A stretch of DNA of 64,000 nucleotides from Halobaculum sp. XH14 (GTDB taxonomy: Archaea; Halobacteriota; Halobacteria; Halobacteriales; Haloferacaceae). The stretch is from contig NZ_CP134949.1 in NCBI RefSeq assembly GCF_032116555.1, forward strand, positions 2,294,001 through 2,358,000. The letters are read 5' to 3'. Positions 7,990 to 18,325 of this stretch are shown piece after piece. The translations under genes and the position numbers were made by a program. Each line of letters starts with the position of its first letter. Within the stretch, counting starts at the first letter, position 1. Under the pieces are notes generated by a model. That model had not been told where the DNA came from, ran no database searches, and worked only from the letters and a program-made list of their open reading frames with translations.

Positions 7990-8736
7990 TCAATCGGCAC
8001 CGGAGCCGACGCCCGGCACGGTGCTCCCGAGTTCGCGGAGCGGGTCGCTCGCCGCGTCCCCGTCCGCGCCGTCGCCGACGATCGCGTCCAGGTTGACGAA
8101 CAGGAACCCCGCAAAGCCCACGCGGATGAGCACGCCCATGTACGCCGACACCGTCGTCGAGACGAACGTCCCGAACACGCCGAACAGCGACAGCAGGGCG
8201 TAAACGATCAACATCCCGGTCATGAACAGCAGGAGGTTCCGTGACTTCCAGTGGAGCAGCCTGCGTCCGTCGGCACAGTCGGCGGCCGTCCGCCAGATTC
8301 GACCGCGGTAGAGGGACAGGAGGACGGCGTGGCCGACGACGACCAGGAGCGCGGCCACGAGCGCGAGGGTGCCGCCGGTGACCGACGCCACGTTGAACGA
8401 GAGCACCTGCAGGAACGGGATCGCCGTGACGAGCGCGATGCTGCGTCGGGACGCTCCCGCGAGGAGCGCGCTGACGACGTAGAGGGCGGGGTAGCCGACC
8501 ATGTCGTTCGAGACGCTCGCCACGTTGATCGACCCGCCGGCGACCGCGATGCTGCCGACGCCGAGCGCCTGGAGGCCGGTCGTGACCGCGCCGAAGCCGA
8601 CCACGAACAGCACGGGGAGACAGTACGGGTGTCGCTGGTCGGGGTTCTGCCACAGCCAGCCGCCAAGCACGGCGAGCGCGACGGCGTAGACGCCGGCCGT
8701 GATGGCGTAGACGGTCGGGTCGCTAATCATCGTCAT
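7990..8736 (-). CDS. Sensory-rhodopsin-like seven-helix protein without the retinal lysine
   Basis: A 248-residue membrane protein with seven hydrophobic helices (about 8-29, 40-60, 77-96, 98-118, 121-142, 164-188 and 190-218) followed by a short acidic tail. It matches sensory rhodopsin II along its length by eye: ALGVG then VA in the B-C loop, a conserved Pro in helix C, LLAG with S-R after it, RNL opening helix F, and helix G reading RVGFAGFLF where SRII has KVGFGFIAL. The retinal lysine (K205 in Natronomonas SRII) is Arg205 (codon at 8122-8124). The counterion Asp75 aligns with Asn77, Asp201 with Gly201 and Arg72 with Ser; the transducer-contact Tyr199 is kept. The start overlaps the transducer gene by 14 bp. 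It cannot form a Schiff base, so it is probably a light-independent or differently triggered sensor. Confidence 0.78.
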   Translation of the reverse strand: MTMISDPTVYAITAGVYAVALAVLGGWLWQNPDQRHPYCLPVLFVVGFGAVTTGLQALGVGSIAVAGGSINVASVSNDMVGYPALYVVSALLAGASRRSIALVTAIPFLQVLSFNVASVTGGTLALVAALLVVVGHAVLLSLYRGRIWRTAADCADGRRLLHWKSRNLLLFMTGMLIVYALLSLFGVFGTFVSTTVSAYMGVLIRVGFAGFLFVNLDAIVGDGADGDAASDPLRELGSTVPGVGSGAD

Positions 8737-10303
8737 CACCCGTCACGGCGCCGGCCCCGGAAGCCAGCGGCTCGGCGTCGGCCGGTGCCGACCCCCGGGT
8801 CTCGAACGCGCTCAGCATGGAGCGCAGGTCCCCGGCCCGCCCGACCAGCGCGTCGGTCCGGCCGCGGACGTCGCTCATCGTCTCGGCGGTCTCGTCGGCC
8901 GTCGCGGCCAGGTCGCGGGACCGGTCGGCAACGTCGACGGCGACCTCCCGGACGTCCTCGACCGCGGCGGCGACCTCCTCGGTGGCGGCCGCGCCGTCGT
9001 CGGTCGCGTTGGAGATCTCGGCCATCGCGTCGTCCACCTCGTCGATCGTCCGGGTCAGTTCCTGGAGCGTCTCGCTCGTCTCGTTGACCGTTCCCACGCT
9101 CTCGGTGATCTGGCCGGAGGTGTCGTCCATCTCCGCGCTCACGTCCTCGAAGTGGGTCCGCGCGCGATCGACGATCTCGCCGATCTCCCCGACCGCCTCC
9201 TGGGTCTCGGTCGCGAGCTGTTTCACCTCCGCGGCGACGACCGCGAAGCCGTCGCCGGCCGCGTCGGCCCGTGCGGCCTCGATGTTGGCGTTCAGCGCGA
9301 GCATGTTGGTCTGTTCCGCGATGTCGTCGATGAGGTCGGTCGTCTCCGCGACGTCGTCCATCTGCTCGTCGAGTTCCCCGATCAGCCGGCCGAGCTCCTC
9401 GACGGTCCCCTCGATCGCGTCGATGGCCTCGATCGCCTCCGCGGCGCGCTCGGAGCCGCGTTCGCCGACCGCGGCGGCGTCGGTCGCCCGCCCGGCCACC
9501 TCGTCGGTGGTGGACGCGACCTCCTCGATCGTCGCCGAGAGCGTGTTCGCCTCCTCGACGGCGCTGCCGAGCTGGTCGGCCTGATCCACGATGTCGTCGG
9601 CGAGCGTGCGGATCTCGGACGCGAGCGACCCGTTCAGTTCCTCCACGGTTTCGGCGTCCTCGGCGACCGCCTCGCTGGCCCGCTCGACGTCGCCCGCGAA
9701 CTCGATGATCTCGTCGATCGTCGTCGAGAGCTCGCCGACCATGCCGTCGTACGCGACCCCGATGCGCTCGATCGCCTCGATGTCGTCGTCGACGTCGAGC
9801 CGGGCCGTGAGGTCGCCGTCGGCGACCGCCGACATCGCGTCGCCGATCTCGCCCGCGCTGTCCAGAAGCGCATCGTTGCGCTCCTCCGCCACCGTTTGGG
9901 CACGCTCTGCATCCTCGCGTGCGGCCTCCGACTCCTCGAACGCCTCCGAGAGCGACAGCCGCATCGTGTCGAACGACGCCGCGAGCCGTCCGAACTCGTC
10001 CGCGCGTCGGCTCTCTGGCGAGACGTCGAGGTCGCCCGCCTCGATGGCCTCCGCGGCCGTCGTGAGCTTCTTCAGTTCCACGCCGACGCTCCCGCCGAGG
10101 ACGATGGCGAGCAGCCCGATGTGGAGCGAGACGACGAACAGCGTGCCCGCGATCGCAGAGAGTCCGGAGCCCCCGGCGGTCGTCGCGTACCACGCGAACA
10201 GCCCGCCGAACGCGAGCGTCCCCGCGAGCGTGACGAGCAGCGCCGTCGCGATGCGCCTGCTGTACTTCCTGGTGAACCACCGACCGCGTTCGGTGACTGA
10301 CAT
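8723..10303 (-). CDS. HtrII-like methyl-accepting transducer, partner of the opsin-like protein
   Basis: A 526-residue transducer. TM1 is about residues 19-40 and TM2 about 47-71, with almost no extracellular domain between them, as in HtrII of Natronomonas (about 534 residues) and unlike transducers with periplasmic ligand domains. Two HAMP domains follow: GDLDV...RRADEFGRLAASFD (~90-112) and ADGDLTARLD (~155). A long coiled coil then leads to the signalling hairpin with the invariant tip EQTNMLALNANIEAARA, which contacts CheA and CheW. TM2 resembles HtrII (SAI-G, IGLLAIVLGG). The residue at the HtrII Asn74 position is His61. The downstream opsin-like gene overlaps its stop codon. Output is expected to be the chemotaxis/archaellum system; no che genes are in the window. 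Confidence 0.9.
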   Translation of the reverse strand: MSVTERGRWFTRKYSRRIATALLVTLAGTLAFGGLFAWYATTAGGSGLSAIAGTLFVVSLHIGLLAIVLGGSVGVELKKLTTAAEAIEAGDLDVSPESRRADEFGRLAASFDTMRLSLSEAFEESEAAREDAERAQTVAEERNDALLDSAGEIGDAMSAVADGDLTARLDVDDDIEAIERIGVAYDGMVGELSTTIDEIIEFAGDVERASEAVAEDAETVEELNGSLASEIRTLADDIVDQADQLGSAVEEANTLSATIEEVASTTDEVAGRATDAAAVGERGSERAAEAIEAIDAIEGTVEELGRLIGELDEQMDDVAETTDLIDDIAEQTNMLALNANIEAARADAAGDGFAVVAAEVKQLATETQEAVGEIGEIVDRARTHFEDVSAEMDDTSGQITESVGTVNETSETLQELTRTIDEVDDAMAEISNATDDGAAATEEVAAAVEDVREVAVDVADRSRDLAATADETAETMSDVRGRTDALVGRAGDLRSMLSAFETRGSAPADAEPLASGAGAVTGDDDD

Positions 10304-10580: not shown

Positions 10581-10597
10581 CGGATGGGCCCTGAGGG
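10581..10597. repeat. attL: 17-bp direct repeat of a tRNA 3' end
   Basis: The 17-bp sequence CGGATGGGCCCTGAGGG is repeated exactly at 18309-18325, where it forms the 3' end and flank of the CAU-anticodon tRNA gene (minus strand). Outside this word the two sites diverge. Together with the integrase gene 70 bp inside it, this marks the left end of an integrated element. Confidence 0.85.
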
Positions 10598-10667
10598 GAC
10601 GGAAATCCGGGGGTACTGCCCGATTTCACAGGCCGACCGTTTGCCAAGTGATGTGCTGGGGAACTCG

Positions 10668-11705
10668 TCATAGGTCAGGGAGGTAATCGCGCCGCTGTTC
10701 TGCTTTCTCACGGGAACTCCGCCGGTCATAGTGCTCATCGAGGATTCCGCTACTCGCGTCGAGTCGGTCGGAGACGATCCGACGCGGAACGTCGTCCCGA
10801 CGGTACGCGGTCACTCGTCCGCTCCGAACGTCATGCGGCGAGCGGGCAGACGGGCACTTACTCGCGTGGTCGGTCTGGGTCGCCAAGCACTCGTCTACCT
10901 CCCTGTCGTGAGGGCAGCCGGCTCCGCGCCAGCACGGACGCGTCATCCGATACAGGGTGTCCCGAAGCGTCGAGATCGAGGGGCGACCGTACTGTGTCGT
11001 GATCAGCGGTTCGCGGGCGTACTCGTCCCGAACATTGTCCCGCGGGCCGTCGATGTAGTCCTCGAGGATACGGGAAATGTACGGACTGATCGCATTCCAG
11101 CGCTCCCCGCGCTCCTTGTTCTTGAGCGGGGTATCCGACTCCGGGCGGTGCCGGAACTGGAGTCCCGGCCGCTCGGCGTCCAGGTCGAGATCGCCCAGGT
11201 CGAGTGACCGAATCCCACCGACGCGCGCGCCGGTGTGCCACATCATCAGGAGGATAACGTGCTCCCGACTCGCGTACTTGTAGCGGTCTAAGTACTCCAG
11301 AATGTCACCGACGCGCTCGGGTTCGAGCGTCGTCTCACTCACGTTCTGTCCGTCGTTCACGATCGGAAGCGGGACGTCGGACCGGAGGTCATCGCGCACC
11401 GCGTCGATTTCCTCCGCGAACCGGAGGAACGCGCGCAGTGTCGCCAACTGGCCGCGCAGCGTTACCGGGGCGATCGGGTCGCGGTCGTCGCCGTTCCCCT
11501 CTCGCCGCCAGACGCGATATCGGTAGAGATCCCGTCCGGCGAGGTCGTTCAGGTTCTCGACGCCCTCCTCTTCGCACCACTGCCGGAACGCGTCGAGCCG
11601 GTAGCTCTGTCCCTGAATCGTCTGCTCGGTCAGCTCGTCCCGGCGGGCTTCGAGATACATCTCGATGCCCTCTTTCGGGGAAAGCGGGTCGAGCCCGTCA
11701 CTCAT
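10668..11705 (-). CDS. int: SNJ2-type tyrosine recombinase (integrase)
   Basis: A 345-residue tyrosine recombinase with an N-terminal SAM-like core-binding domain (about 10-110, including FRQWCEEEGVENLNDLAGRDL) and a C-terminal catalytic domain. Catalytic residues visible: Arg in HTGARVGGIRSL (~165), Lys in the TPLKNKERGERW loop, His-x-x-Arg in SPHDVRSGRVT (~290), and Tyr in ILDEHYDRRSSREK (~330). A four-Cys/His insertion (CWRGAGCPHD ... CLATQTDHASKCP) precedes the HxxR box and recurs in the second integrase of this window, a feature of this haloarchaeal group. It sits 70 bp from attL and should catalyse integration and excision at the tRNA. A 64-codon frame overlaps its start. Confidence 0.93.
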   Translation of the reverse strand: MSDGLDPLSPKEGIEMYLEARRDELTEQTIQGQSYRLDAFRQWCEEEGVENLNDLAGRDLYRYRVWRREGNGDDRDPIAPVTLRGQLATLRAFLRFAEEIDAVRDDLRSDVPLPIVNDGQNVSETTLEPERVGDILEYLDRYKYASREHVILLMMWHTGARVGGIRSLDLGDLDLDAERPGLQFRHRPESDTPLKNKERGERWNAISPYISRILEDYIDGPRDNVRDEYAREPLITTQYGRPSISTLRDTLYRMTRPCWRGAGCPHDREVDECLATQTDHASKCPSARSPHDVRSGRVTAYRRDDVPRRIVSDRLDASSGILDEHYDRRSSREKAEQRRDYLPDL

Positions 11706-11892
11706 CGTTCGACACCTCGGTTGCGGTTCGGCCCATCATCACGTCGGGCTGATGGGACTGGGTTGGAAATATTCGAGCACCCTTGCTACGGTGAAAGTAA
11801 ATCCACTTTCGCCGCGCACGGCGGTGATCGGTCGCTCGGGCTACCGAGTCGTCGTCGGGGGTTTCATGCGCCCCCAGCAGGATTGCTGACAT
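11698..11892 (-). CDS. Small protein overlapping the integrase start (tentative)
   Basis: A 64-codon frame whose stop codon overlaps the integrase start by 8 bp (ATGAGTGA), the arrangement of a translationally coupled operon. The product is basic in the middle (DHRRARRKWIYFHRSKGARIF) and could bind DNA. I recall that the SNJ2 integrase operon contains small accessory proteins needed for recombination, so an excisionase-like helper is plausible, but no homology can be shown. Coding character is weak. It may also be a chance frame. Confidence 0.35.
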   Translation of the reverse strand: MSAILLGAHETPDDDSVARATDHRRARRKWIYFHRSKGARIFPTQSHQPDVMMGRTATEVSNDE

Positions 11893-12129
11893 GGCTTTCG
11901 TGCCTGGTCACGGAAGCCCACGCGGGCCCGCTGTCCCAGCAGCGGGGTCCGCTTGCGTTCTACGGTGGACCCATCGAGCAGTGACGAGTCCGCGAGATGC
12001 TTCCGCTATCTGTTTGCGTATTGTAGTGAGTTAATAAAGGTGACCCTATTTAGGCTTGAAATGTATATTTGAGGTTTCTTCTGTCACCTACCAGAGTCGT
12101 TAAGAGTGTCTCCGTGTGTTACCTTGCCA
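11893..12129. other. Divergent control region of the integrated element
   Basis: No gene is seen. The right half is AT-rich and should contain the promoters of the repressor (plus strand) and perhaps of the integrase operon (minus strand). The words GGTGAC (near 12040) and GTCACC (near 12085) form widely spaced inverted arms around a TATA-like stretch (ATGTATATTT), a possible operator for the adjacent repressor. Confidence 0.4.
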
Positions 12130-12402
12130 ATGAAGCCACGCCCACCGTGGGCAAGTAAGTACGATGAGCCAATTCTTGAATTATTAGACGATTCTGAAAC
12201 AGTTCTTCCGCCTGCTGCTGTAGAGTTTAATTTGGATTACAAGGGTATTGCATCACCTGCATACTCTACAGTCAAGCGAAGGATGAGAAAACTCGCTGAA
12301 CACGGTTTCCTAAACCGGGTTGAAGGAAAATCTGGATACTATGTCATAAGTGATTGTGGTAGAGCATATCTTTCTGGAGAACTGGATGCCGACGATTTCT
12401 GA
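12130..12402 (+). CDS. phiH1-type winged-helix repressor
   Basis: A 90-residue winged-helix protein starting at the ATG at 12130 (MKPRPPWASKYDEPILELL); a longer frame from 12106 adds eight unlikely residues. The pattern MKPRPPW...D-ILE, a helix-turn-helix near residues 40-60 (YSTVKRRMRKLAEHGFLNRVE) and a wing ending in GYYVISDCGRAYLSGELDADD matches the halophage phiH1 repressor-like family found in many haloviruses and proviruses. It probably keeps the element quiescent by binding the divergent control region. Its codon use is AT-rich, unlike the chromosome. The same frame continues open after the TGA stop to 12519. Confidence 0.85.
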   Translation: MKPRPPWASKYDEPILELLDDSETVLPPAAVEFNLDYKGIASPAYSTVKRRMRKLAEHGFLNRVEGKSGYYVISDCGRAYLSGELDADDF

Positions 12403-12519
12403 TCTACTATATTGCGCTCGGTCCACACAAGGGAGCCACTCCCGCAATGGCTTCAATCGGCCATCCCTCAATTTGAGAGAGAAGCTGGTACACGAGCTGG
12501 ACGAGACATTTCTGATTGA
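12403..12519 (+). pseudogene. Open-frame remnant in phase with the repressor
   Basis: Directly after the TGA stop of the repressor, the same frame stays open for 38 codons and reads like protein (REPLPQWLQSAIPQFEREAG) before a second TGA. It has no start codon of its own. It may be the tail of a longer repressor truncated by a nonsense change or the remains of another gene. Evidence is limited to the plausible amino-acid pattern. Confidence 0.25.
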
Positions 12520-12560
12520 GATTTAAACTACAGGAGAAAAGAAAACCGCGTCGAAACTAT

Positions 12561-13805
12561 TTATACGAGCCTTTTTAACCGTTTAAATTCGTCAGAGTTA
12601 GCAATCTCATCTAGTGATGTCTCCCAGTCATCATAAATATCTGATTCGATTTCATCAACGTATTCGTCGATTTCAGTAGATATCTGTTTGTATAGCGCTT
12701 TAGCACGCCTAATTTTGGATCTTGCTTTTTCAACTCTCTTCGGGAGGTTTTTGCCTTCATATGAGGAGGCGATATGGTCACAGGCCCAAACGTAGTGATC
12801 CCAAGAACCCTCCGCCTTACCCCATCCTGTGTTCGCTGGTGTGACTGACCCATCGAACAGATCGCTTTCATATGGAGACTTGGTGCGGATTTTTTCTTCA
12901 TCAAAACCTGGTTCTTTATATAGCTCATCGAGGAGGCTATCAGGCCTAATTGATGTGAGTAACTCGTCGGAATAGTATCTAATAACAGGCGTTCTAATCT
13001 GAGTTTCGTCTGGAACAATCCACCTTTCTGTATCGAAACTCCTCAAATTCTTGTAGTGTCCAGAGCCAACTGCATTGACCCCAATAGCGAATAGGAGATG
13101 AGCGATTTGGTGAGTGTGCGCAGCGATAACATTGTATCTATTAACCCTAAGTGTCGCCATCAATTCGAGGTAAGAGGTTACTTTTTCCACACCTTGTAAT
13201 GGCAACCTCGTGTCTCTATCTGAATATGATACTGAAACATAGAACCCATCAGTATCCAATTCTGTTGCCGAATCCATCAATTGATTTCGGATTTCAAGGT
13301 TCGTTAAACGATCGCCATTAACGGGTAGAGAAAGATAGACCGGAATATCTCTCCCCTCAGACCGTGCAATTTCTAGGAATGCCTCAGTGAAATCTTGCCA
13401 ATCATCGATTTCCTCTGCCGAAAGTTCTCCGAGATATGACGATGGAGAGAGATAGGCATTAGTGTCATAATCATCTTGCGCCTCGATAACCAATTTTAGA
13501 AATTCGTCTCTCCGTTCTGTATCAAATAATACGCCGCTAGTATAGTCCTCACCACCGTATTTCTCGTGGTATTCATATTCATTCAGATCCTTCCGATCCC
13601 CCTGACCAGGTAGGTAAAGGTGGGGATCAAACAGTGTGACTAAGTCTTCAGAATTTAAGCTATTGGCCAGCTCCTTGTTCACTTCCGGTTTATAGTCTGT
13701 CGGGCTGAGTATAGCACCGTCAAGATGGTCTCCCTCAATTGCGTCATAGACGCGGTTCTTTCCATGATGCCCAACCTGAATTAGGTAGCTTGGTTTGTCA
13801 AACAT
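12561..13805 (-). CDS. Uncharacterised 414-residue protein of the AT-rich cargo operon
   Basis: I do not recognise this family. The protein is soluble and alternates short hydrophobic strands and amphipathic helices across residues ~1-260 (HLDGAILSPTDYKP, VTLFDPHLYLPGQ, IPVYLSLPVNGDRL, TDGFYVSVSYS, RYNVIAAHTHQIAHLLFAIG, VNAVGSGHYKNLRSFDTERW), which suggests an alpha/beta barrel. Conserved-looking polar sites are DPHLYLPG, the AHTH-xx-AH segment and GSGH. Residues ~350-414 are charged helices, probably a coiled coil. The start ATG shares one base with the kinase stop (TAATG), so translation is coupled to the kinase. Codon use is AT-rich and foreign to the host. A target or effector role beside the kinase is inference. 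Confidence 0.8.
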   Translation of the reverse strand: MFDKPSYLIQVGHHGKNRVYDAIEGDHLDGAILSPTDYKPEVNKELANSLNSEDLVTLFDPHLYLPGQGDRKDLNEYEYHEKYGGEDYTSGVLFDTERRDEFLKLVIEAQDDYDTNAYLSPSSYLGELSAEEIDDWQDFTEAFLEIARSEGRDIPVYLSLPVNGDRLTNLEIRNQLMDSATELDTDGFYVSVSYSDRDTRLPLQGVEKVTSYLELMATLRVNRYNVIAAHTHQIAHLLFAIGVNAVGSGHYKNLRSFDTERWIVPDETQIRTPVIRYYSDELLTSIRPDSLLDELYKEPGFDEEKIRTKSPYESDLFDGSVTPANTGWGKAEGSWDHYVWACDHIASSYEGKNLPKRVEKARSKIRRAKALYKQISTEIDEYVDEIESDIYDDWETSLDEIANSDEFKRLKRLV

Positions 13806-14650
13806 TAGTTAGTCACCTCCAAGCTATCAAAGAAATCCTCCGCAAACTCCGGTTTTCGGAACCGTTTACTTGGGACCGGATTAGTTAACGTATCGAAGAA
13901 ATAATCTAAGTCTTCTCCTTCATCCCCATCAATATAATCTGTTAGACTTTGTTTATCGCCGTCACAGATTGCGTCTGTTACGGACTTTCCTCTGTCCTTA
14001 AATGGATGAACTCCTGTAATTGTCTCAAACATAACGACCCCAGATGAGAATAGATCTGTCTTGATACTTTGCTTACTCTTATCGTAATCAAGCTGCTCAG
14101 GAGCACCATAGAAAGGCGTCCCAAGTCGATCAAGATGATCCGGAGTCAAACTTTCCTTTTCCTCAAACCGCATGATTCCAACGTCCAAAAGCCGAATTTC
14201 TTCATCATCGGTTACCATGATATTGGCTGGTTTGATATCTCGATGAATCATCTCTTTCTCGTCAAATTCCTTAAGTATATCCAAGAGTGTAGAAATTGTA
14301 TACAGGCCAAAATCAAGTCCGAAGTTTCCATCTCCAATGTACTGTTCCAGTGTTTGGCCATTAATATATTCTTCAAATATAATGAATGTTTGTCTTCCAT
14401 CGATTTCTTCTTCATAGTAATCGATCAGATCAACAAATGTGTTCGACTCAATTTCTTTCATGGCTTCCCCTTCTCGATGAGCGCGCCTTCTTCTACTTCT
14501 GCGATCTACCGGTAGAAGTTTTAGAACGACCTCTTCGCCCCTATCATTGACGAGGAATACATCTTTGAACCCGCCAGAATCAATATGTTCTATTAGTTCG
14601 AGACCATCGAAGTGGGATTCAACCACATCGATATCATAAAACTTTGGCAT
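13805..14650 (-). CDS. Hanks-type Ser/Thr protein kinase
   Basis: A 281-residue soluble protein that is essentially one kinase domain. Visible features: glycine loop IDSGGFKDVFLV (~23-34), VAIK-type lysine in VVLKLLP (Lys44), catalytic loop IHRDIKPANIMV (Asp138, Asn143), the magnesium motif written DVG rather than DFG (Asp156), and an activation segment ending GTPFYGAPEQ. All residues needed for phosphotransfer appear to be present. There is no membrane segment or sensor domain, so a partner must supply the signal. It lies between the nuclease-like gene (35 bp upstream) and the 414-residue gene (1-bp overlap). Hanks kinases occur as signalling or toxic parts of several phage-defence systems. 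Confidence 0.92.
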   Translation of the reverse strand: MPKFYDIDVVESHFDGLELIEHIDSGGFKDVFLVNDRGEEVVLKLLPVDRRSRRRRAHREGEAMKEIESNTFVDLIDYYEEEIDGRQTFIIFEEYINGQTLEQYIGDGNFGLDFGLYTISTLLDILKEFDEKEMIHRDIKPANIMVTDDEEIRLLDVGIMRFEEKESLTPDHLDRLGTPFYGAPEQLDYDKSKQSIKTDLFSSGVVMFETITGVHPFKDRGKSVTDAICDGDKQSLTDYIDGDEGEDLDYFFDTLTNPVPSKRFRKPEFAEDFFDSLEVTN

Positions 14651-14685
14651 TTAACTGCAATCTATAACTCCAACCGTAAATACTT

Positions 14686-15363
14686 CTAGGCTGACTTCTC
14701 GATGAGAGTGCTTTCGTTCAGCTTCCAACGATATAGCTCCGAATGGGGATTACCGCGACCTGGTTTATGATGCATGTAGCAATCCCCACTCTGGTCAATT
14801 GATAACAATCCAATATTGCGGCTTTTGAATTGTTCAAGATTATCCAAAGCAGGTTCAATATGGTCGTGGTCAAGAGCTACAAATTTATATTCTGCAAACG
14901 AACGTCCTCGGGATGCTTGTTTAATTGCTTTTTGCCATTTTCTTAACTTCAATTCAACTGCGACTGTTGTAGTTATGTGCCGCCGCAGATCGCAGGCAGT
15001 TTTAATTTTTCCTTCTTCCTCTTCTTGGACAAAGCCTCGATCCTTCAACCAGTTCAAGGACTCCCGTTTATACCGCCGCTTCAAGGCACCAATTTGATAG
15101 AAGTACTCCTCGGTGACAGCGCCATCTCTCGCATGCAACTGGAGGAATGTAATTAGGACATTCTTGTCCTCGATTGGTGTCTCTAGATTGAGCCGTTTAG
15201 TTCGTCTTTCCCAATATGGCTCTGAGACATTTACGAATACTAAATCAGTTCTTCCAGTCCCATATCCAAATTCAGTAAGAACCTCATAGTCTTTCTTACG
15301 TAAGGTTGAGGGTATTAGGTCCTGTGCCACATCCTTCATATCGTCCTCTGAATCAAATCCCAT
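14686..15363 (-). CDS. PD-(D/E)XK nuclease-like protein with an inserted winged helix
   Basis: A 225-residue protein starting at the ATG at 15361-15363, preceded by a GGAGG Shine-Dalgarno site at 15371-15375 with good spacing, unusual for this genome. The PD-(D/E)XK pattern is visible: helix then EFGYGTGRTDLVFV (Asp40), and later VAVELKLRKWQKAIKQASR (Glu137, Lys139) followed by a strand (EYKFVALD) and NIGLLSID. Between the two halves lies a helical stretch (~68-120, ending in LKDRGFVQEEEEGKI) that reads as a winged helix, perhaps for DNA recognition. It is the first gene of the AT-rich operon with the kinase and the 414-residue gene. Restriction-like activity is a hypothesis. Confidence 0.75.
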   Translation of the reverse strand: MGFDSEDDMKDVAQDLIPSTLRKKDYEVLTEFGYGTGRTDLVFVNVSEPYWERRTKRLNLETPIEDKNVLITFLQLHARDGAVTEEYFYQIGALKRRYKRESLNWLKDRGFVQEEEEGKIKTACDLRRHITTTVAVELKLRKWQKAIKQASRGRSFAEYKFVALDHDHIEPALDNLEQFKSRNIGLLSIDQSGDCYMHHKPGRGNPHSELYRWKLNESTLIEKSA

Positions 15364-15489
15364 CAATTATCCTCCATTTTGGTCCGAGTCGTGGGCACCT
15401 TTTGGATTTAATGAATTAATAATACTTGGCATCTGGAATGTTCCGAAGGCAAATATTTTTTGGTTGTGAAAATGTAATATTAGCCGAAA

Positions 15490-17505
15490 TTAACCCTTCA
15501 TCGACCCTCTCGCCTTGGCCAGTGAACTAACTGGATCATACGAAAGTACGCGGTCAGCCGCTTTCGGTTCCACAAGACCGTGATCGACGAGGTGACCGGC
15601 CATCATCTCCGGATCATGTATCGCAACGTTACACTTGCCACAGCGCCAGATTTCGCCTTTCTGGAGCGGCTTCGCTAACCGCGTCTCTTCGAGTACGTGC
15701 GTCTCCGGGAGGTGCAGCTGCACCATGTCGACGCCACCCTCACCGGGTGGGTGTTCCTCGCCGTCGGCGTCCACGATCGCGTCCAGGTGCCAGTCGGATT
15801 CGATCGGGGTCGCTCGTTGGAACGAGTCGACCCCATGACCAGCGTCGAGATCGTTGAGGAGATCCGCGACGAACTCGCGGTGGCGCGGGTCGATGCCGAG
15901 GTCACCGCACACGAACGCAACGGAGTGAACGGCGTCCGGATTCGCACGACGCCATCGGGTAACGAGTTTCCGAACGCGGGCTTTCTCGCGCGACTCACCG
16001 ACCGACGCAGCAGCGTCGGCATCGCGCCACAGTTCTGACAGGGACGGCTCCGTGTCCTCGGGGTCGTGCGGGTCGGGGAGCGCGTCCGCGAGTTCGTCAT
16101 CACCTACAGGTTCGTCCAGCCGGGACTGGTCGACTTGCCAGCCGGACGAGCAGCACGAGCAGACGACGTCGGGACCGTTCGCGTCGGACCACTCGATGTT
16201 CTCGCCGTGGTCGACGGACTGCGAGGCTTCAGCGGACTCAGCGCGCTGGCGACAGCGGTCGGCCGTGATGGCCTGGTTGACCACCTGCGAGCGCGACGTT
16301 CGCCGGCGCGACGCGGACCAGTAGAGCGCGCCCCACGCGAGGTATTCGACCGGCCGCTCTACCAGCCGCTCGTCGTACGAGCCGCCCATGTAGGCGGCGA
16401 GGTAGCTCCCGAGGTTCGACACGTCCATGTTCACCGAAATGCAGCCGTCCGACTCGCTCACGTAGTCGGAGACTGCCTCGTAGTCGTGCGCGGAGCGACC
16501 GGCCGGATCGCACACGTCGAGATGTTTCTCAACGATCCGCTCTAGCTCGGTGCCAATCTGCTGCCCGTCGAGGCCGGCGGCGTCGAGGTAGACGCCCACG
16601 TGCAGGTGCGTGTAACAGGCGTTCATGCCGGCGTACGCGTCCGGGTCAGCGGCAGCACCGACGCCGTGCGGTTCTGACTGGAGCCAGAACCCCCACTCGT
16701 TGGCGTCCAGTCCGAGATGGTACTCACACACGTTTCGCAGCGTGTCACGGACGCCGTCGTAACTCCAGGCGTCGTGCAGCGCGTCGAGGTGGTCCACAGG
16801 CGACAGCCGCTCACCACCGGGGACAGACGACGCTGTGAGCGTCACCATGCCCGTCGCAGGCCGTTCCCATGCAGAGACGGCGTCACCACCGGACGGACGT
16901 TCACCACCGCTCATCTGCCGCTGGAGCGCGCGAGCGCGGGCGTACTGCTTCGCGTGATACTCCGTTCCCCACGCGTCCGTCAACGGGAGTTCGAACGTCT
17001 CACCGTCGTCGTTCGCAAAGCGCGCCATCAACCCGTCGTAACGGGTGTGTGCGGTTAGGAACGCTTGCAGAGCTTCGCCCCACGTTGCAGCTTCGCGCCT
17101 GTCGAGTTCAGTCAGCGTGAACGCGGATTCGCCCTCACCGTCCGGGTCGACGTGTACGTCAGACCACTCAGCTTCCGTAACGATGCGGCGGAGTTTCCGC
17201 CCGTGCGTCTGCGACAGGGGAAGCTCGGCCAACTCCGGGTACGCCGCATAGAACTCACTCACGCGGTCGAGGACTGTCTCGGGAACGTCGTCCCCGTGAA
17301 AACGACCGGGAGAGGCCTCTACAGAGTTGGTCTCCTTGGAAGGCCAAGACTGGCCCTGGTCAGTCGGTGGCGCTTCCGGGCCGGCAGACCGGGACTCGGA
17401 GTCGTCGACTTTCGGAACGACGCGAACGTGATACGGCACCGAAGCCGACGGCTCTCCGGATTCGGCGCTGCCCGCGTCCGGTCCATCGACGGGTTCGCTA
17501 GTCAC
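15490..17505 (-). CDS. rep: HUH rolling-circle replication initiator
   Basis: A 671-residue protein. The chosen start is the GTG at 17503-17505, which overlaps the stop of the upstream zinc-finger gene by 8 bp; the frame further upstream is out-of-phase shadow of that gene. The HUH motif is HLHVGVYLDA (His300, His302), and motif 3 lies in SNLGSYLAAYMGG (Tyr368 or Tyr372 as the nicking tyrosine). A CSCC cluster follows near residue 430, and the C-terminus has a C2H2-like finger (WRCGKCNVAIHDPEMMAGH...H). This is the Rep type of haloarchaeal pleolipoviruses and small plasmids; it nicks the double-strand origin and stays bound to the 5' end. A strong hairpin at 17954-17993 is a candidate origin. 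Confidence 0.88.
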   Translation of the reverse strand: MTSEPVDGPDAGSAESGEPSASVPYHVRVVPKVDDSESRSAGPEAPPTDQGQSWPSKETNSVEASPGRFHGDDVPETVLDRVSEFYAAYPELAELPLSQTHGRKLRRIVTEAEWSDVHVDPDGEGESAFTLTELDRREAATWGEALQAFLTAHTRYDGLMARFANDDGETFELPLTDAWGTEYHAKQYARARALQRQMSGGERPSGGDAVSAWERPATGMVTLTASSVPGGERLSPVDHLDALHDAWSYDGVRDTLRNVCEYHLGLDANEWGFWLQSEPHGVGAAADPDAYAGMNACYTHLHVGVYLDAAGLDGQQIGTELERIVEKHLDVCDPAGRSAHDYEAVSDYVSESDGCISVNMDVSNLGSYLAAYMGGSYDERLVERPVEYLAWGALYWSASRRRTSRSQVVNQAITADRCRQRAESAEASQSVDHGENIEWSDANGPDVVCSCCSSGWQVDQSRLDEPVGDDELADALPDPHDPEDTEPSLSELWRDADAAASVGESREKARVRKLVTRWRRANPDAVHSVAFVCGDLGIDPRHREFVADLLNDLDAGHGVDSFQRATPIESDWHLDAIVDADGEEHPPGEGGVDMVQLHLPETHVLEETRLAKPLQKGEIWRCGKCNVAIHDPEMMAGHLVDHGLVEPKAADRVLSYDPVSSLAKARGSMKG

Positions 17506-17902
17506 CGTCCTCGGCGGGAACCCACTGCGCCGCGTCTCGTTGCGAGGACACCGAGGTGTCCTCGCTGCGCGCCGGCTTCCGGGTCGGGGGCAAGCCCCCG
17601 CTTCCGGCGGGCGAGGCCGGGGCGGCCGCGTTAGCGCCGCGGCCGCCGAACACCGGCCTCGCCGCTCCGTCGCTTGCGGCGGATGCGACGAGGGTCGCGT
17701 TATACGCCCAGAGCAACCCGTCGACGCGCACGTCGATGAACTCACGCTGGAGATCGGGCGCTTTCACGCAGTGCTCACACTCCCGGTACCGGGCGTGCTC
17801 CGTGCGCGGCTCCGTGGTCACGAGGTACTGACAGCCGCGGCACTGGTACTCGATGAACCTCGGAAGGCCGGGGCCTCCGACGGCATTCGTGCCGCCGATC
17901 AT
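17498..17902 (-). CDS. Small zinc-finger protein upstream of rep
   Basis: A 134-residue protein starting at the ATG at 17900-17902. The N-terminal half carries a CxxC...CxxC zinc ribbon (YQCRGCQYLV, then RECEHC, residues ~20-45), and the C-terminal half is low-complexity, rich in Ala, Gly and Pro and likely disordered. The stop overlaps the GTG of rep, so the two are translationally coupled. A small Cys-rich protein ahead of Rep is common in related haloarchaeal elements. DNA binding or a replication accessory role is inferred from context only. Confidence 0.7.
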   Translation of the reverse strand: MIGGTNAVGGPGLPRFIEYQCRGCQYLVTTEPRTEHARYRECEHCVKAPDLQREFIDVRVDGLLWAYNATLVASAASDGAARPVFGGRGANAAAPASPAGSGGLPPTRKPARSEDTSVSSQRDAAQWVPAEDGD

Positions 17903-18308
17903 CGTCGCCTCCGTCGGGTCGAGCGCGCGTCCCCTGGGGAATCGTGTGTACCACCCGCCTGCCTACCCCCCAAAAGAGGGGCAGGCAGGCGGGGACGGGC
18001 GTAAGGTGAAAGCTCAGGGTTTGCGTCCGGCGTGTCAGTGTGCCGACGAAGCTGGTTCCCTCTACGCCCTGTCCAGCGGAGAACACTGGAAGGGAGAGAG
18101 GGACGGACGGACGCCGCTACCCCTGCAAACCGCGGGTGTGTCGGGTGGGAATCGACTAACGAATTCGGACGACGGCGAAGACCCGGAACCGCTATCCGGT
18201 CGACATACCGGTCAAACTGGCCTCTCGTCCACTGTCGGAAGTGGCGAGTTCGAACGTTTGAACGGCTTTTTCGGCGGTATCGGGGTCGAGTTAGAACCGA
18301 GCAGCGTC
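17903..18308. other. Non-coding right end of the integrated element, upstream of the rep operon
   Basis: No credible gene is present. The region contains the strong hairpin at 17954-17993, presumably the rep operon promoter, and about 280 bp without recognisable features up to attR. The short open frames are interrupted and lack haloarchaeal amino-acid bias. Confidence 0.5.
17954..17993. repeat. Strong hairpin, candidate rolling-circle origin
   Basis: Arms CCCGCCTGCCT (17954-17964) and AGGCAGGCGGG (17983-17993) are perfectly complementary. After one A/C mismatch the stem continues with four C-G pairs (17966-17969 with 17978-17981) and closes on an A-rich eight-base loop (CCAAAAGA). It lies about 50 bp upstream of the zinc-finger gene and the HUH rep gene, the position expected of a double-strand origin nicking hairpin. 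A transcription attenuator or protein-binding site is an alternative. Confidence 0.6.
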
Positions 18309-18325
18309 CGGATGGGCCCTGAGGG
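18309..18325. repeat. attR: 17-bp direct repeat within the tRNA 3' end
   Basis: Identical to 10581-10597. The repeat includes the last 13 bases of the tRNA gene (minus strand) and 4 bases downstream, so the tRNA remains intact after integration and the other copy is left at the far end of the element. Confidence 0.85.

Follow-up and report, generated by a model that had tools for sequence, protein, structure and literature searches.

Microbial rhodopsins are regarded as light-only proteins. In the complex of sensory rhodopsin II (SRII) with its transducer HtrII, the two proteins are in contact through Tyr199 of SRII and Asn74 of HtrII (PMC3274258). A set of haloarchaeal 'opsin-related proteins' (ORPs), which make up nearly 30% of haloarchaeal opsins and fall into groups A and B, has been described by Becker et al. 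2016 (PMC4915679). In group A the retinal lysine is replaced by arginine and Trp76 by aspartate, and the gene usually adjoins one for a HAMP/MCP protein (PMC4915679). ORPs are transcribed, two purified proteins gave no retinal band, and the group A member from Halorubrum distributum bound no retinal in vitro and had no band at 480-580 nm; a role in non-light taxis sensing was proposed (PMC4915679). No later functional study of ORPs was found in the literature searched.

The DNA analysed here is a stretch of 64,000 nucleotides from Halobaculum sp. XH14, referred to below as the window. It encodes a group A ORP, a kind of protein that is already published: a seven-helix opsin homologue with arginine in place of the retinal lysine, a position within the single group A clade and a HAMP/MCP gene as neighbour. 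The pocket is also that of group A, with Asp76, Leu174 and Ala178, and Tyr197 is kept. Both genes of the pair lie on the minus strand where an earlier reading of the sequence alone (the sequence-only reading) had placed them.

The opsin and its altered retinal site

The opsin gene (7990..8730, minus strand) encodes 246 amino acids forming seven transmembrane helices and a BC β-hairpin. The start codon is taken as the ATG at 8730, two codons inside the start used in the sequence-only reading, because relatives begin with Met-Ile at that point; the length of 248 residues given previously is corrected accordingly. Searched as a single protein, the opsin gave no rhodopsin match from Pfam or NCBIfam, and a first genome scan with it as the only query also gave no match. 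A single-sequence phmmer search against the PDB matched bacteriorhodopsin (E=4.5e-4) and SRII (E=0.023), and a profile of four relatives matched SRII at E=1e-17. An AlphaFold2 model based on an alignment of 53 relatives (pTM 0.85, mean pLDDT 91.5) has the seven helices and the BC hairpin, and its best PDB matches are SRII chains from the SRII/HtrII complex (1h2s, Z 28.6, 2.2 Å, 223 residues). On the predicted structure the protein is a type 1 opsin homologue with seven helices, and the homology to SRII that had been proposed by eye holds on the profile and the model, though not in Pfam.

In SRII numbering Lys205 is replaced by Arg, Asp75 by Asn, Arg72 by Ser and Asp201 by Gly; Trp76 becomes Asp, Tyr174 becomes Leu and Trp178 becomes Ala, while Tyr199 is kept. 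The helix G Schiff-base lysine, the Asp75 carboxylate counterion and Arg72 that characterize a photoactive sensory rhodopsin are therefore all missing, as the sequence-only reading had recognized. Its substitutions stand, and its residue numbers (Arg205, Asn77, Gly201) do not, owing to the upstream start; in the 246-residue protein they are Arg203 (codon CGC, 8122..8124, minus strand), Asn75 and Gly199 (the Asp201 site), together with Ser72. Asn75 and Asp76 are encoded at 8503..8508, and Tyr197, the equivalent of the SRII Tyr199 that bonds to HtrII Asn74, at 8140..8142, both on the minus strand. The internal relay of SRII between Thr204 and Tyr174 is also absent, so the signal must take another route.

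Across 60 group A sequences site 205 is Arg in 58 and Ser in two, so a sequencing error at the lysine site is ruled out. Lys162, Arg164 and Tyr199 are each invariant (60/60), Tyr80 is found in 59/60, and position 75 or 76 is acidic in 56/60; the aromatic residues of the retinal pocket are missing throughout the clade. Two sites set the window opsin apart: the site of SRII Thr189 is Gly rather than the Asp of most relatives, and Gly199 stands at the Asp201 site, which many relatives retain as Asp. We infer from the sequence that Arg203 occupies the position of the positively charged Schiff base and may be paired with Asp76. Two group A-like relatives (L117 and L065) have Ser at the retinal-lysine site and no acid at 75 or 76; they form one sister pair, hence the joint change counts as one event and is only suggestive.

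The transducer and its contact with the opsin

The adjacent gene (8723..10303, minus strand) encodes a transducer of 526 amino acids. Two transmembrane helices joined by a short external loop are followed by a HAMP domain and an MCP signalling domain, and the N-terminus matches NpHtrII at E=5e-20, in agreement with the HtrII-type assignment made earlier. There is no room for an external sensor domain of its own. Of the seven MCP genes in the host genome six were read (all but L161), and among these only that of the window has an HtrII-like two-helix N-terminus.

The two genes share an 8-nt overlap, ATGATTAG (8723..8730, minus strand), in which the opsin start codon lies within the end of the transducer gene. 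They had been described as 'fused by overlap'; the pairing is indeed like that of sop and htr, but these are two separate genes, which are probably coupled. The transducer is directly upstream of the opsin in 49/52 group A loci, one of the remaining three being a cut contig, and an overlap of 4 or 8 nt is found in 45/49 adjacent pairs. Long upstream frames in some relatives, considered as true opsin–transducer fusions, are the transducer gene read in other frames. No other neighbouring gene is kept across the group A clade in the neighbourhoods of these loci, and a conserved third gene that might hint at the stimulus was not found beyond single clades.

The residues of the SRII–HtrII contact are retained on both sides. 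Opposite the invariant Tyr199, the position of NpHtrII Asn74 is occupied in the window by His61 (10121..10123, minus strand) and by Asn (36) or His (13) in 49/49 group A transducers; beside canonical opsins the same position is Asn, Ser, Gly or others. The second contact, between Thr189 and Glu43/Ser62, is not preserved as such. The window opsin probably drives the adjacent chemotaxis transducer.

Relatives, selection and the host genome

Of 392 sampled Halobacteriales genomes searched with a profile, 49 contained strong group A loci, 52 in all, spread over 14 genera and 5 families. Named carriers include Halorubrum distributum, Halomicrobium katesii, Haloarcula mannanilytica, Halorussus marinus, Halobium salinum and Halobaculum saliterrae. 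All sampled group A sequences form one clade in the tree (support 100/100), which includes the window protein and the H. distributum member (L056/L080), with group B and the canonical opsins outside. Within it the window opsin belongs to a 12-row subclade with Halorussus-, Haloarcula-, Halomicrobium- and Halobacterium-type members, and does not group with Halorubrum although this genus is of the same family as the host.

Substitution rates were estimated for 14 pairs by a simple counting method. The median dN/dS is 0.35 for the opsin (range 0.16-0.45) and 0.20 for the transducer, and the most conserved part is usually the membrane–HAMP region of the transducer. By these sequence comparisons the opsin is under purifying selection; the values speak against decay and are in keeping with a sensor that varies while its transducer stays constant. 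In one pair of Haloarcula-type loci (L086 and L090) the opsins are 58% identical and the transducers 89%, so that the sensor may have diverged, or been exchanged, on a single transducer. Some group A opsins are broken within otherwise complete pairs, by a split frame in L114 and by single internal stops in the G143 and G243 loci (L110 and L115); these may represent recent loss or assembly error.

The host genome is 99.9% complete. No match to PF15461 (Brp/Blh-type oxygenase) or PF01036 (Bac_rhodopsin) was obtained in the host or two sister species; the searches work, since 11/16 and 12/16 of the genomes searched were matched, respectively. Another group A carrier (G281) likewise has neither. 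A CheW and a CheA-like CheW domain were found in the host, as was one lycopene-cyclase-type domain, C-terminal in a prenyltransferase-like protein (L126 1462-2649), which leaves room for carotenoid cyclization.

In one sister genome (G002) a DUF6663 gene lies ~60 bp from tRNA-Met, and in the other (G001) a different gene stands between the two. In the window the gap between them holds the ORP pair followed by an integrated element (10581-18325). This is bounded by a 17-bp direct repeat, CGGATGGGCCCTGAGGG, with one copy at 10581 and the other, at the 3' end of the tRNA, at 18309. The element contains a tyrosine-integrase-like gene (10668-11705) and, in a low-GC core (about 44-46% versus 70%), a protein-kinase gene (13805-14650); it is absent in both sister genomes. 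The ORP pair lies outside the repeats, and the idea that it is cargo of the element is unsupported. Gain of the pair by transfer and its loss in the sister species are both possible.

Function and comparison with known systems

On the best explanation, the window ORP descends from a sensory rhodopsin, has ceased to form a pigment with retinal, and would provide the seven-helix sensory component of a taxis receptor that consists of two proteins and works independently of light (probability about 0.77). This reading of the sequence data is based on the fold, the conserved Arg, the lost retinal pocket, the HtrII-type pairing and the conserved contact partners, together with the lack of a detected retinal-forming oxygenase or canonical opsin in the host genome. 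It is also what the sequence-only reading had suggested, and as such is the ORP hypothesis already in print (PMC4915679); of the stimuli that the sequence-only reading gave as examples (membrane state, redox or hydrophobic molecules), none is singled out by the evidence.

That the opsin is instead a decaying photoreceptor, a sensory rhodopsin whose function went with the retinal synthesis of its lineage and which has no present role, would account for a host genome with no detected Brp/Blh or canonical opsin, for the broken opsins in single relatives and for the faster evolution of the opsin than of its partner. It is nevertheless very improbable given the conservation of Arg205, Tyr80, Lys162, Arg164 and Tyr199 over 14 genera, dN/dS values of 0.16-0.45 in 14 pairs, the maintained overlap with the transducer, and the many group A carriers that still make a retinal-forming oxygenase. 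A working photoreceptor with non-covalently held retinal, or with a different chromophore (a carotenoid, for example), is improbable too: the aromatic pocket residues are lost over the whole clade, no retinal-forming enzyme was detected in the host genome, and a group A ORP given retinal showed no 480-580 nm band (PMC4915679). Becker et al. did leave an alternative chromophore open (PMC4915679), and haloarchaea are rich in carotenoids, with the lycopene-cyclase-like domain of the host in keeping with this.

The opsin might also be a structural partner only, stabilizing or placing a transducer upon which the stimulus (membrane state, voltage or ions) acts itself. In favour of this, no feature of the pair is more constant than the contact residues, and the opsin interior differs among genera. 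However, a conserved membrane and HAMP part of the transducer beside a variable opsin is what one would expect of an opsin that confers specificity, and transducers with no opsin occur in the same genome; a purely structural role is thus considered unlikely.

For a light-independent sensory subunit the following mechanism may be envisaged. Arg203 would replace the positively charged Schiff base and pair with the helix C acid, here Asp76. The stimulus would be something other than light, most likely a small molecule or an ionic condition; on reaching the vacated pocket it would shift helices F and G. This movement would be relayed by Tyr197 to His61 in the second helix of the transducer, and from there by way of the HAMP domain and CheA to the motor. 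More tentatively, group A ORPs in general may be rhodopsin-derived chemoreceptors in which a permanent Arg205–Asp75/76 pair stands in for the protonated Schiff base and counterion and is opened by the stimulus, with fast-changing opsins giving one conserved transducer different specificities in the manner of GPCRs; this wider proposal is possible but doubtful.

A widespread branch that is unable to hold retinal by a lysine and yet keeps the signalling contact would point to the rhodopsin fold as a general membrane receptor. The host genome offers a clean test case, with one ORP–transducer pair, chemotaxis genes, and no retinal-forming oxygenase or canonical opsin detected, so that responses dependent on the pair could not be credited to another opsin.

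Compared with SRII and HtrII of Natronomonas pharaonis, the window pair shares the fold (Z 28.6), the gene pairing, the residues of the contact between Tyr199 and HtrII position 74, and the two-helix HAMP transducer. The opsins are ~18% identical in the structural alignment, and the window protein differs in having no retinal lysine, Asp75, Arg72, retinal pocket or Thr204–Tyr174 relay. Group B ORPs similarly have no retinal lysine, and some have adjoining transducers with His at HtrII position 74; they differ in being mostly hydrophobic at 205, with Tyr at 76 and Arg72 kept, and lie outside the group A clade. The window protein shares with published group A members the Arg at the retinal site, Asp76, Leu174, Ala178, Tyr199, the HAMP/MCP neighbour and the clade, and differs in Asn75, Gln108, Ala127 and the Gly at site 189, as well as in its Halorussus/Haloarcula/Halomicrobium/Halobacterium subclade, most published members being from Halorubrum. 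What is new in comparison with Becker et al. is the wider survey, the transducer side of the contact, the Arg–acid pairing, the contrast in rate between opsin and transducer, and a carrier genome with no detected retinal synthesis.
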